64,000 nucleotides of DNA from Bdellovibrio sp. NC01. GTDB lineage: Bacteria; Bdellovibrionota; Bdellovibrionia; Bdellovibrionales; Bdellovibrionaceae. This document shows, piece after piece, positions 23,915-51,969 of the stretch; position 1 is the first letter of the stretch; every line of letters starts with the position of its first letter. The notes beneath the pieces were generated by a model, which was not told where the DNA came from, ran no database searches, and worked only from the letters and a program-made list of their open reading frames with translations. The stretch is from positions 2,480,001-2,544,000 of the forward strand of contig NZ_CP030034.1 of assembly GCF_006874625.1 (NCBI RefSeq), read 5' to 3'. Position numbers and translations under genes: made by a program.

Positions 23915-24451
23915 ATGATTCTTACAGATCAGCAGATTCTTCAGTTTATGGAAGAGGGTTCAATTAAGGTTGAGCCTTTCCGCAGAGAGTGCCTAGGTAC
24001 GAACTCTTACGATGTTCACTTGGGTAAAACTCTTGCCGTATACGAAGACGAAGTGCTGGATGCTAAGAAGCATAACAAGATTCGTACTTTTGAAATTCCA
24101 GAAGAGGGCTTCGTCTTGATGCCAGACACCCTCTATTTGGGTGTGACTTTAGAGTACACTGAGACTTTGAAGCACGTTCCCTTCTTGGAAGGCAAATCAA
24201 GCGTCGGCCGCCTTGGTATCGACATCCATGCAACTGCTGGTAAAGGCGACGTTGGTTTCTGCAACTTTTGGACTCTTGAGATCTCTGTAAAACAGCCCGT
24301 CCGTGTTTACACTGGAATGCCTGTCGGCCAGTTGATTTACTTTGAAGTGAAGGGCGAGATTCTTACGGCTTATAACGTAAAACCGTCTGCAAAGTATAAC
24401 GACAAAAAGCCGCTGCCAGTGGAATCAATGATGTGGAAAAATTCATTCTAA
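23915..24451 (+). CDS. dcd: dCTP deaminase
   Basis: 178 residues beginning MILTDQQILQFMEEGSIKV, the classic Dcd start. GTNSYDVHLG gives the N-terminal nucleotide-binding part. The core GKSSVGRLGIDIHATAGKGD with the GFCNFWTLEI follow-up matches the trimeric dCTP deaminase/dUTPase fold; the Ser-Arg and Glu (LEI) positions form the catalytic site. The enzyme deaminates dCTP to dUTP for dTTP synthesis, and members of the family that also hydrolyse dUTP exist, so a bifunctional role cannot be excluded. It follows rpmG by 11 bases and its 3' end overlaps the next gene by 19 bases. Confidence 0.93.
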   Translation: MILTDQQILQFMEEGSIKVEPFRRECLGTNSYDVHLGKTLAVYEDEVLDAKKHNKIRTFEIPEEGFVLMPDTLYLGVTLEYTETLKHVPFLEGKSSVGRLGIDIHATAGKGDVGFCNFWTLEISVKQPVRVYTGMPVGQLIYFEVKGEILTAYNVKPSAKYNDKKPLPVESMMWKNSF

Positions 24452-25083
24452 GAATTCTCCTTACAGCGACACTTACACTCAGCCTCGCAGCATGCGGAGG
24501 CGGCGTAGCCGATGATTCTTCATCTGGCCTGGATTCGTACGTCGTTACGAACGGTTCGTTTACATCCACAACATCATCAAATTTATCAGGCTTAGGCGGA
24601 GCACGCTTTATCAATGTCTTAAACGGCATTTTTAGCAGCAACTCCATCGCACTTAAAGCCCAACTGGATGCCACCGGAAATTCAGTCACAGTTTTCATGA
24701 ACACCAGCGCCACAGTGATGACGAACTCATCAGTAGGCGGAATAGCAATCACATTCCAAAGATCCGGCGCAAGCGTTCTAGCAAGCATCGCCGTGAACGG
24801 AAGCAGCGTCTCTGTAAACGCCAGCCAATTAGTATTCTACGTCCCAAGCGCACTTGACGTGATCATCGACGTTCACAACATCAATGCCTCCCAATCAAGA
24901 GTGATGATCTGGAGAAGAGACCTAACAGTTTATAATTCTACAAACGCCGACGTAGACACGAACACCTCATCAGACTACAGCGGCACCTACCCCAACCAGG
25001 GAGGCCAAGGCCAAAACGCCGGCCTATACCTAAACAACGCCACAGTAACAGGCGCAAACATAGGCATCGCCAAAGCCCCATAA
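24433..25083 (+). CDS. Small Ser/Asn/Val-rich lipoprotein
   Basis: 216 residues from a GTG start that overlaps the dcd stop by 19 bases. The leader (FILRILLTATLTLSLAAC) ends in a lipobox. The mature part starts with GGG, is low in charge, rich in Ser, Asn, Thr and Val, and contains beta-strand-like repeats (ASIAVNGSSVSVNASQLVFY), as in many outer-surface lipoproteins. Codon use shifts toward C-ending codons near the 3' end. I recognise no family. No clear ribosome site precedes the GTG, so translation is probably coupled to dcd. It is convergent with the 1013-residue lipoprotein gene across a structured intergenic element. Confidence 0.65.
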   Translation: MEKFILRILLTATLTLSLAACGGGVADDSSSGLDSYVVTNGSFTSTTSSNLSGLGGARFINVLNGIFSSNSIALKAQLDATGNSVTVFMNTSATVMTNSSVGGIAITFQRSGASVLASIAVNGSSVSVNASQLVFYVPSALDVIIDVHNINASQSRVMIWRRDLTVYNSTNADVDTNTSSDYSGTYPNQGGQGQNAGLYLNNATVTGANIGIAKAP

Positions 25084-25197: not shown

Positions 25198-25230
25198 CGA
25201 AAAGTCGATCAATAATCAATACTAGCAAAA

Positions 25231-25374
25231 ATTTGGTGGAGCTTGTTGGATTCGCCTTGCGCAGGCGGCCTTCGTCGGCGCCACGATGGCGCGAACCGCA
25301 GCGAAGCTGCGGCGACGACTGAGCCCGGACGGCGTGCCGCCGAAGAAAGGTGAAGCCAACAAGCTCCACCAAAT
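25231..25374. repeat. GC-rich element bounded by a perfect 19-bp inverted repeat
   Basis: ATTTGGTGGAGCTTGTTGG (25231-25249) and its exact reverse complement at 25356-25374 bound a 106-base core. Pairing extends inward a further nine positions through one mismatch and one G-U (TTCGCCTT opposite AAGGTGAA), giving roughly 27 pairs. The core contains a second perfect hairpin, CCGCAGC-gaa-GCTGCGG, and other GC-rich complementary words (GGCGGC/GCCGCC). Whole-element folding would give a long branched structure. It could be a non-autonomous mobile element (REP/BIME or MITE-like), a structured RNA or a convergent terminator. No transposase lies nearby. Confidence 0.65.
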
Positions 25375-25393
25375 TCCCCGCGCTAGGCAATGA

Positions 25394-28300
25394 CTACTGC
25401 TCGATCTCCTTGTCGATACCAGGAATCTCAGGAGTGGCAACCTTAGCAGTCTGATCCGCAACGTAACCAAGAACTTGAGCAAGTGCTCCGCGATCGGCCC
25501 AAACGTCCCATTTTTCTGGTTTGCCTTTCCATTTTAGCAAGAACACCAACTTCTCTTTCAAAGTCTCTGGTGGCTTACCGTAGTGAAGCATGAAACAGAA
25601 AATCGCAGGCAAATCGTTTTCAGAAATAGAACCGCTGTCGATTTGATCTTTCGCGAACTCAAGCAACAAACCTTTGAACATGCCGTAAGCTTTCAAAGCT
25701 TCTTGCGTGTTGATGTACCCATCTTTGTTTTTATCGTATCGAGCAAACAACATCTCGATGTACTGAACCACATGCGGAGCCAAACTTAAATCGCCCCACT
25801 TCACAGTTTTCTTCGAGTTCGGAACATAACCAGCCGCTTTGAACACGTTCGTCAAATAATCGTCGAATTCGTCAGCGTCGCTCGCTTTTTTGATGTATTT
25901 CAAATACTCCGGCGTGCCCTTCATATAGGTCGCCATTGAGCGTTTATATGATTTACGAGCGCACTCCACTTTTAACAACGTGCCGTCAACAGGGTCTTTT
26001 TCGTTCGTCAAACAATCGGACTGAAGTTCATTCTTCAAATCCGTATTGATGTTCAAACCTGACCAAATCATACCGACAAGATCCGTGAACTCTTGGAAAG
26101 AGGCGTAGTTGTTACCGTCAGCGTGCGGTGTGAACAAGTTTGCATCGCGGAAACGGGAATCACCAAATGTCGTGTTCGTTTTATCCAACAAGCCCATTTG
26201 GATAAAGATCACTTTCAATTCGTTAAAGCCGTACTGAACCTCTTTAAGAGTCACACCGCTATAATCTGTGATACGATCCATGTCGGTCGCAAAAGAACGA
26301 ATCGCAATACGCGCAATCGCACGATCCAGATTCAACTGTTTCAAACTTTTCTTCGTGTAACTGACGCTGACACGGTTTGAAATAATCAAACGACCTTCAG
26401 AATCTACGATCAATGGCGAAGACGTGTTCGCCATCAACGCGAACTCTTTCAATGCTTCATTCAAAGCCGCAGAGTTGTTTTTAGACTTAGAAGCTTTAGT
26501 GATAAGATCAACGAAATCATCCGGAGTGATGCCTTCGTTTGGCTTCCAATCTTGCGAAAGTTTTGCGATGAACAATTCCGCATCAAGATAGACTTGCAAT
26601 TCTTTGCGCAGAACTTCGATAGAATCCGCGTTCAAAGCATTCGGCACGCTACCCGCGATACGTTTTTTCGGTTCAACCAAAACGTTATTCACGACAACTT
26701 TAACAACCTGATCAAGCGCTGTTTGGTCGATACCTTTTGGCAAGATATCCAAAGTCAGAATATCTTTACCAATCACCGACAAATCTTTGCGAGTGAACTG
26801 ATTGCCATCTTTCACTTGCATCAAGTCTTTAAGGATATTCAACGTTTGATTGACCATCACCGACAAATTGCCGACCGGTTCAGGCTTGTCCCAAGTTACG
26901 TCTTTCAAGAAGTACTTATAATATAAGAAGTCCGTGTAAACGCGGGCCCCGTAACTAAGAACGATACTCCAGTGACCTTTGTTCAAAGTTGAATCGCCAC
27001 CAAGAATGACTTTCTTCACGTCAATCACAGTCGGCAAATATTTCTGAGCGGTCTTCACCAACGAATCGTCCGCTTTTTTCGGCGGATACAGAGCTTCAAA
27101 CTCTTTGGCCAAATTGATTACGTCTTTAAGATCGTAAGAACCTTCGATCAATACGCCCAATTCGCGACCTGTTGATTCCAAGATGAACTGCGCATCCAAG
27201 AAGAACTTTTGCGCTTCTTCTGGCGTGTACATCGTAGGGTCCCAGTCAGCTCCATAGATCGCCCAGAACGGCATGAAACGCTCAACCAATGATTTCAAAC
27301 GGCTGACTTTTAAACGTGCATTCTGGAAGTCATTTGTAGAGAACGATTCAGAACTACCGCCGAACAAAAGCTTTTTAACTTTCATCCCCTCAACAACAAG
27401 TCCTTGAGAGATTTTAAAATCAGGCCAGATTTTTGAAAGCGTCGACAATAAGTCAGCCACTTCATCGCGCGAAACAATACCTTCAGGTTTTTGCGCCGTC
27501 AGATCTTCAAACACGGACAAGATATCTTCAACAGTACGAGACACGTAAGCCAGGCGATAACCTGCACCCGTCTCTTCAGTGCCTTTGATGAAATAGTAAT
27601 AACGAAGATACTGAATGTAACCGCGCGAACCTAACAAAGCGAAACGACGCCATTCGTTGGGTGCAACGACATTTTCATCACCACCGGCTAAGGCTTTTTT
27701 CACCTTTTTTACAGCTGGCATGTATGTTTCAAGCGTGCGAGTGAATTCCCAATCTTCTTCGAAGAATTTAGAGAATTCTTTCATCAAACTTACGAAGTCA
27801 GAAAGTGCATAAGTTTGACCGTTTTCTTCGAACAATGTCGCAAGGGTGCGACCCGCTTTTTGAACGGCAGTATTTGCTTCTTCGAAGTACGCCATGTCCG
27901 TTTGAATATTCGACACGTGAGTCACGGTCCAATTCAAAGCCAAAACTTTCATGTAAGGGTTCAAACCCAAAGTGACTTGGCGGAAGACTTCGAACGTGCT
28001 TGCGGCTTTATCAAGTTCAGCGCGCGTGATGTATTCACGACCGCCACCAACAAGAAGCTGCTTAATTTTCATGAACTCAACTTGCAGTTCAGGAGAAATT
28101 TTTGTTTTTTTAGATTTATCGAAGAAGTTCGACTCTAGGAATGTCGCGATCTCTTGCGACGTATAGCGATCGGCATTGTTACCACGAACGTATTTTTTAA
28201 ACTGGGCAACCGCAGAACCCACACAGTCCCACAAAGCATTCACATCGGGATTTTTTGCTGTCCCTTTGATGAAGTCTTTTACGACGGGACTTGCTGAAGA

Positions 28301-28435
28301 AAGACACTGAGTTCCTGAAAACTCATAAGCATCAGCCGGCGGAGGTGTTTCACCCACACGAGCATCACAGCCCGCTAATAATAAAGCAGCAGCACTTAAG
28401 AGCAAGGCACCCTTAAGTTTAAAATTAGAAAACAT
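25394..28435 (-). CDS. Very large lipoprotein (1013 aa) with repeats and one EF-hand
   Basis: The ATG has GGAGG 8 bases upstream, lying within the overlapping barrel gene. The lipoprotein signal (LLLSAAALLLAGC) ends in lipobox LAGC. The mature chain is helical and built from repeated units: [VM]-K-[IKV]-[KV]-x-[LV]-x-G-G-[GSD] appears at least four times (KIKQLLVGGG, VKKALAGGD, VKKLLFGGSS, VKKVILGGDS), and GSRGYIQYLRYYYF matches GARVYTDFLYYKYF about 300 residues later. Near residue 901 there is a canonical EF-hand loop, DKNKDGYINTQE, which should bind calcium. Function is unknown. It is coupled to the barrel gene just upstream, the same arrangement as at 1-5.5 kb. Confidence 0.8.
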   Translation of the reverse strand: MFSNFKLKGALLLSAAALLLAGCDARVGETPPPADAYEFSGTQCLSSASPVVKDFIKGTAKNPDVNALWDCVGSAVAQFKKYVRGNNADRYTSQEIATFLESNFFDKSKKTKISPELQVEFMKIKQLLVGGGREYITRAELDKAASTFEVFRQVTLGLNPYMKVLALNWTVTHVSNIQTDMAYFEEANTAVQKAGRTLATLFEENGQTYALSDFVSLMKEFSKFFEEDWEFTRTLETYMPAVKKVKKALAGGDENVVAPNEWRRFALLGSRGYIQYLRYYYFIKGTEETGAGYRLAYVSRTVEDILSVFEDLTAQKPEGIVSRDEVADLLSTLSKIWPDFKISQGLVVEGMKVKKLLFGGSSESFSTNDFQNARLKVSRLKSLVERFMPFWAIYGADWDPTMYTPEEAQKFFLDAQFILESTGRELGVLIEGSYDLKDVINLAKEFEALYPPKKADDSLVKTAQKYLPTVIDVKKVILGGDSTLNKGHWSIVLSYGARVYTDFLYYKYFLKDVTWDKPEPVGNLSVMVNQTLNILKDLMQVKDGNQFTRKDLSVIGKDILTLDILPKGIDQTALDQVVKVVVNNVLVEPKKRIAGSVPNALNADSIEVLRKELQVYLDAELFIAKLSQDWKPNEGITPDDFVDLITKASKSKNNSAALNEALKEFALMANTSSPLIVDSEGRLIISNRVSVSYTKKSLKQLNLDRAIARIAIRSFATDMDRITDYSGVTLKEVQYGFNELKVIFIQMGLLDKTNTTFGDSRFRDANLFTPHADGNNYASFQEFTDLVGMIWSGLNINTDLKNELQSDCLTNEKDPVDGTLLKVECARKSYKRSMATYMKGTPEYLKYIKKASDADEFDDYLTNVFKAAGYVPNSKKTVKWGDLSLAPHVVQYIEMLFARYDKNKDGYINTQEALKAYGMFKGLLLEFAKDQIDSGSISENDLPAIFCFMLHYGKPPETLKEKLVFLLKWKGKPEKWDVWADRGALAQVLGYVADQTAKVATPEIPGIDKEIEQ

Positions 28436-51861: not shown

Positions 51862-51969
51862 AATCTCATCATTCTAAGCTGACGGGACAAGCTCCACAAG
51901 CTTCACCCCACCTTTTTGCATTTCACCGCAACGCAAGATGAGCATCGCTCCATTCTACTGTCAAAAAAC

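Follow-up and report, generated by a model that had tools for sequence, protein, structure and literature searches.

A hairpin element of Bdellovibrio as a probable member of an interspersed DNA palindrome family found behind gene 3' ends

What is the element with inverted ends that fills the gap between two convergent genes of Bdellovibrio sp. NC01, and is it DNA that has been copied about the genome or the template of a structured RNA? The window, a stretch of 64,000 nucleotides (contig NZ_CP030034.1, positions 2,480,001 to 2,544,000), had been read from its letters and open reading frames only. This sequence-only reading proposed a discrete element with perfect 19-bp inverted ends in a convergent gap, to be checked by BLASTN against the whole genome and by a covariance search across copies. 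The position between two convergent ORFs was confirmed (Table 1). The inverted ends are also present but measure 20 bp rather than 19 bp (AATTTGGTGGAGCTTGTTGG and its reverse complement), and an extra CTAGC/GCTAG pair lies outside them at 25222-25226 and 25382-25386. Inside the terminal arms lie a further, imperfect stem and the branched core. When folded as RNA, the element gave a minimum free energy of -91.1 kcal/mol against a shuffled mean of -55.3 (z -9.33, with 0 of 200 shuffles as good), and when folded as DNA it gave z -9.62. We estimate that a perfect 20-bp repeat with its arms so close would be expected by chance about 1e-5 times in 64 kb, and the copies found elsewhere settle that the hairpin is not a product of chance.

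Table 1. Positions in the window of the element, its parts and the neighbouring open reading frames.
Feature	Position	Strand	Basis or remark
Whole element including the outer CTAGC/GCTAG pair	25222..25386	(-), the sense strand of the upstream gene	Fold; conserved ends GCGGGGATTTG...CAAATTTTGC in other copies
Left terminal arm, perfect 20-bp	25230..25249	none	Inverted-repeat match
Right terminal arm, perfect 20-bp	25356..25375	none	Inverted-repeat match
Conserved 72-nt branched core	25267..25338	+	Covariance model R1, 97.5 bits
Core stem P2, 5' side	25272..25277	+	Partner 25313-25318; both-side changes in 5/6 pairs
Core hairpin P2a, GCGCCA-CGA-TGGCGC	25278..25292	+	Core alignment/covariation
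Core hairpin P2b, CCGCAGC-GAA-GCTGCGG	25296..25312	+	Variable, covarying; both-side changes in 5/6 modelled pairs
Core hairpin P3, GCC-CGGAC-GGC	25323..25333	+	Core alignment/covariation
1013-aa ORF with the element in its 3' flank	25394..28435	(-)	TAG stop 25394-25396, 55 nt from core
216-aa convergent ORF on the other side	24433..25083	+	

A BLASTN search of the NC01 genome with a 156-base query at E < 1e-4 returned 21 rows. Two come from the element itself, one of them a self-match on the reverse strand, and the remaining 19 represent 18 further copies. The aligned part of the query was mostly positions 30-130, the core. Forty-three cores from 18 genomes were aligned and used to build a covariance model, R1, of the 72-nt core, with which 26 copies were found in the 3.98-Mb NC01 genome (G000) and copies were found in 22 of the 24 genomes of the genus, B. 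bacteriovorus HD100 (G005) among them. Across the family 24 of 66 genomes have copies, and the only ones outside the genus are G035, from another genus, with four matches (best E 8e-8), and G082, with one match at E 0.007. Read by eye, the G035 copies have similar ends, including a similar GGGGATTT end, and in two of them a terminator stands ahead of the element. With 26 copies and strong covariation, this is not the single-copy sequence lacking covariation that the sequence-only reading had named as counting against its own proposal. The same reading had suspected a decayed relative near 51886. The partly similar word pair does exist (ACAAGCTCCA at 51887-51896 and GCTTCACC at 51900-51907), but the family model, searched at E up to 10, matched the window only at the element itself and the site was rejected as a family member. 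A 401-base stretch of the window locus found no match in the plasmid collection, and the exact 21-base core pattern gave 0 stretches in viral contigs. Counted by eye, 19 of the 26 NC01 copies lie within the first 1.2 Mb of the contig; no replication-strand bias was evident when the copy list was judged by eye.

The core and the arms behave differently. In the 43 aligned cores 98.1% of the stem cells are paired, and both sides have changed in 14 of the 25 pairs, giving a covariation score of 0.318 against 0.091 for shuffled alignments and no more than 0.084 when slid. While the core is constant, the arms of about 50 bp are nearly unrelated among copies yet still paired; L163 and L167, for example, have cores 98% identical and arms that look unrelated. 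A median of 48 Watson-Crick pairs was found within 75 nt on each side of the core in 117 copies. The outer ends are common to many copies; on the sense strand the 5' end reads GCGGGGATTTG(C) and the 3' end either CAAATTTTGC or CAAATCTGTGC. Variants of the core also occur: in L017 another hairpin is nested within P2a, and L182 (684-818) and L188 (1653-1789) have enlarged cores of 135 and 137 nt.

Placement was examined in the same 117 copies, from 98 loci of 11 genomes (G002, G014, G006, G019 and G020 in part only); a further 12 loci with 14 matches stand outside these counts. The copies are not independent since orthologous ones are included. Genes were called with a simple codon-score script and terminators with a simple in-house rule, which missed a terminator at L165 that was seen by eye and called a false one inside the element at L219. 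Read opposite to the plus strand of the window, the copies are in sense with the upstream gene. The stop codon of a sense gene lies less than 450 nt upstream in 94 of the 117 and less than 200 nt upstream in 85, leaving 32 outside the 200-nt limit with this simple gene caller. Where the stop is within 90 nt (61 copies), no intrinsic terminator intervenes in 60, and where it is further away (24 copies), an intrinsic terminator intervenes in 23 by script and in the 24th, L165, by eye. The T-tract of the preceding terminator begins at a distance of 55-103 nt from the core. Genes that have no intrinsic terminator bear the element directly behind the stop codon, and the others bear it behind the T-tract of the terminator. 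In the NC01 genome 19 of the 26 copies fall within the 200 nt by script, and L016, behind a small ORF recognised by eye, is the twentieth. An opposite-strand gene ends within 450 nt on the other side of 68 of the 117 copies (median 196 vs 72 nt), and the larger distance to that gene end is as expected for convergent gaps. Close pairs of copies were all arranged (-)(+), pointing outward (9 of 9, among 84 copies of six genomes), which would follow if the two copies of a pair were attached to one convergent gene each. No common function of the upstream genes in NC01 was seen by eye; among them are genes that we take to encode EF-G, signal peptidase and CheW. TAG stops appeared over-represented directly before copies (29 of 61 vs 11 of 43 window genes, p 0.03 with orthologs uncollapsed). 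A literature search on insertion behind terminators found nothing useful.

We conclude, with a probability of roughly 0.6, that the window element is a copy of an interspersed Bdellovibrio family of DNA palindromes which lie in one orientation directly behind gene 3' ends. Directly observed are the many copies, the conserved core and end motif, the rule of orientation and placement, the presence, absence or internal deletion of copies in different species, and the arms that change together.

The manner in which the arms change was followed in 24 comparisons of orthologous copies from close species. Among 1148 scored cells of the arms, 47 had gone from one Watson-Crick pair to another by a double change, 7 had a double change of another kind and 99 had changed on one side only. 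In the core 536 pair cells were unchanged; six had a single change, two a compensated double change and one a double change of another kind. When the comparisons were cut to 20 so that three-way sets were not reused, 40 arm pairs had changed on both sides, where 5.6 would be expected if the sides changed independently, and 37 of the 40 were still Watson-Crick. Nine compensated pairs lay side by side, compared with a mean of 4.1 and a maximum of 10 in 1000 permutations. L201 and L211 have the same 5' side for about 130 nt but differ at clustered positions of the 3' arm, and the copy in G001 is an almost perfect palindrome. Either the one arm has been rewritten from its partner, or it decayed alone in the sister. 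Multi-base compensated changes of this kind are described for template switching in PMC8794818.

A structured RNA would be expected to pass through G-U intermediates as its stems covary. In the core only 8 of 2604 standard pairs (0.3%) are G-T, the column pair 18-89 being excluded since many copies have a loop there, whereas 38 of 564 (6.7%) are in 26 distinct tRNAs from two of the repeat-bearing genomes (p 7e-22). Isolated mismatches in the arms, scored on the sense strand, are G-T in 65 cases and A-C in 81 (p 0.21), and the single changes of the ortholog comparisons comprise 25 G-T and 29 A-C, in both cases without strand preference. The near absence of G-T from the core and the lack of strand preference in the arms indicate that the pairing is maintained in the DNA itself, whether mutation or selection acting on DNA is responsible. 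The covariation is then not evidence for an RNA, although an RNA may still exist, and it points to DNA template switching as a better explanation than selection on RNA.

The proposal that the element is a structured RNA in the 3' UTR of the upstream gene, serving as a 3'-end protector, a protein-binding site or a source of small RNA with the sense strand functional (minus in the window), is nonetheless the alternative that survives best, though we consider it unlikely. It would account for the fixed orientation behind stops and for the conserved branched core with its covarying stems, and it draws on a published transcript. APsRNA6 is listed in PMC3627812 as an attack-phase transcript of HD100 at 1338787-1339441 (+), and the HD100 copy at 1339161-1339234 (-) falls within it, so the sense strand of that copy is transcribed. 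A transcript of the family is known in this indirect way, from published HD100 data alone, and an overlap of one copy with one of the eight listed sRNAs can be chance. Besides the scarcity of G-U in the core and the lack of any G-U excess in the arms, the 24 copies behind an intrinsic terminator lie outside the main transcript, and Rfam gave no match in the window at the gathering score and below it only chance-level ones. In G005 the sole match to the c-di-GMP-I riboswitch, at 1073868-1073951 on the minus strand, lies within the merRNA published for HD100 in PMC3627812, in keeping with the identity of G005 as HD100. The APsRNA6 locus was considered as an empty site and rejected; it is a pair, single copies of which are core-deleted in HD100 and G002.

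If the family is DNA, it may have moved. The analysis turned up neither a linked transposase nor a target-site duplication nor a clean empty site; CTAG flanks the window copy on both sides, and CTAG is itself palindromic. The reading as an IS-derived MITE, fossil or still active, that belongs to a Y1/TIRYT transposase or one of another kind agrees with the multiple copies, the inverted ends, the cores that are genome-specific in several genomes and the presence of Y1_Tnp genes in 21 of the 24 genus genomes (79 matches). In NC01 21 of the 26 cores are closer to cores of the same genome than to those of other clades, a likeness that is weaker elsewhere (8 of 16 in G017 and 7 of 14 in G023). However, of the 79 matches eight Y1 loci were examined, and R1 found no element at them up to E 5. 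Several of these eight loci have terminal repeats unrelated to the palindrome family, and a linkage to Y1 or RAYT genes was rejected for the eight. Three genomes without Y1_Tnp still hold copies (12 in G012, 6 in G016 and 11 in G007). The exact end motif occurs nine times in the NC01 genome, always at a known copy, and hence no autonomous version is seen there. Taken on its own the MITE reading is quite improbable. The family is probably non-autonomous, and it was probably mobile at some time. The Y1 loci L244, L245, L247, L248 and L249 have terminal repeats of their own, several of the AAAAGG(T/C)(A/G)CCTGC type, which resemble the TIRYT elements described in PMC3733652. A wider end-motif scan of NC01 gave 33 sites, 14 at known copies by coordinate and 19 elsewhere; 16 of the 19 were folded and none was the element. 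Among them was L346 (G000:C1:3136677, about 1476-1600), a different strong hairpin with family-like ends (GGGATTTGC...GCAAAGCAC) and a core unlike that of the family, perhaps a sister family of the repeat.

The history of a single site was followed in the orthologous gap. The gene upstream of the window element is present in all 24 genus genomes, and the gap at its 3' end holds the element in four of them (G000, G019, G011 and G022), with different arms in G019 and in the G011/G022 pair. By eye, a short remnant of the ends of the element can also be made out in G019, and in G021 a decayed stretch resembling the G011/G022 copy. An ordinary intrinsic terminator is found instead in G002, G023, HD100, G015, G009 and G004, and in many other genomes the two genes abut or overlap. 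No match was found in 15 additional MAG loci of this gap, some of them likely from the same species as genomes already used. From the present, remnant and core-deleted states across species it follows that elements come, go and decay; many nonetheless persist, and close species share many copies at the same gene end, so the family may have spread long ago and may have a fixed function. A terminator or insulator substituting for an intrinsic terminator would suit this exchange, and the lower frequency of a preceding terminator in element genes (24 of 85 vs 21 of 43 window genes, p 0.03 with orthologs uncollapsed), but it is the least probable reading, given that by eye the arms are not consistently followed by a T-tract and most copies end in one of the two common 3' motifs, that 24 copies are already preceded by a terminator, and that the APsRNA6 end stated in PMC3627812 falls beyond the HD100 copy.

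Several classes of repeat can be compared with the palindrome family. YPAL, ERIC, bcr1 and MITEs are larger palindromic repeats of 100-200 bp, hairpin-forming and interspersed, and to that extent the Bdellovibrio repeat is alike; it differs in having its orientation tied to gene 3' ends and in surrounding a constant core with arms that are unrelated but paired. Integron attC sites are recognised by GTTRRRY-type core sites and a nearby integrase. REP units, as described in PMC3733652, are 20-40 bp long, tagged GTAG or CGTC and linked to RAYT transposases. REP and BIME repeats share with our family their many extragenic palindromic copies at gene ends and their oppositely oriented pairs, whereas the Bdellovibrio element is about 165 bp long and has a branched core, a linked RAYT was not found for it (8 Y1 loci), and GTAG stands near the end of some copies without being constant. 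The TIRYT-linked families treated in that publication are likewise moderately abundant inverted repeats in genomes with Y1 transposases, but the Y1 genes examined in Bdellovibrio bear other terminal repeats than the palindrome family. Hairpins maintained by template switching, as presented in PMC8794818, are similar in their multi-base compensation and in arms rewritten from each other, although they were described in RNA genes and the present case is an interspersed DNA repeat. The portions of the Bdellovibrio literature that were searched contain no account of such a family, which seems to be undescribed, also in the model strain HD100.

For the DNA palindrome family the following mechanism may be envisaged. 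Copies would form hairpins or cruciforms in DNA during replication, and template switching within the hairpin could rewrite one arm from the other, so that pairing would survive even as the arm sequences drift. A putative host or mobile factor, which may spread the element or use it, would recognise the constrained core together with the GGGGATTTG/CAAAT ends. The conservation of the core implies a function that the reading as a DNA palindrome leaves unnamed. By analogy with the similarly placed REP/BIME repeats, the family could plausibly act in DNA topology or at the 3' ends of transcripts. A bolder version, which we hold only tentatively and regard as doubtful, is that of a mobile or maintained DNA hairpin which recognises where transcription ends, set in one orientation behind stops and terminators, with a putative machinery reading the core as single-stranded DNA, and which forms a physical boundary at the 3' ends of genes in predatory bacteria.

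The palindrome family is a natural case in which covariation, usually read as proving a functional RNA, is better accounted for by template switching in DNA. In this family insertion or retention is tied to gene 3' ends, and it offers >100 loci at which to test what acts at the sites where transcription ends.
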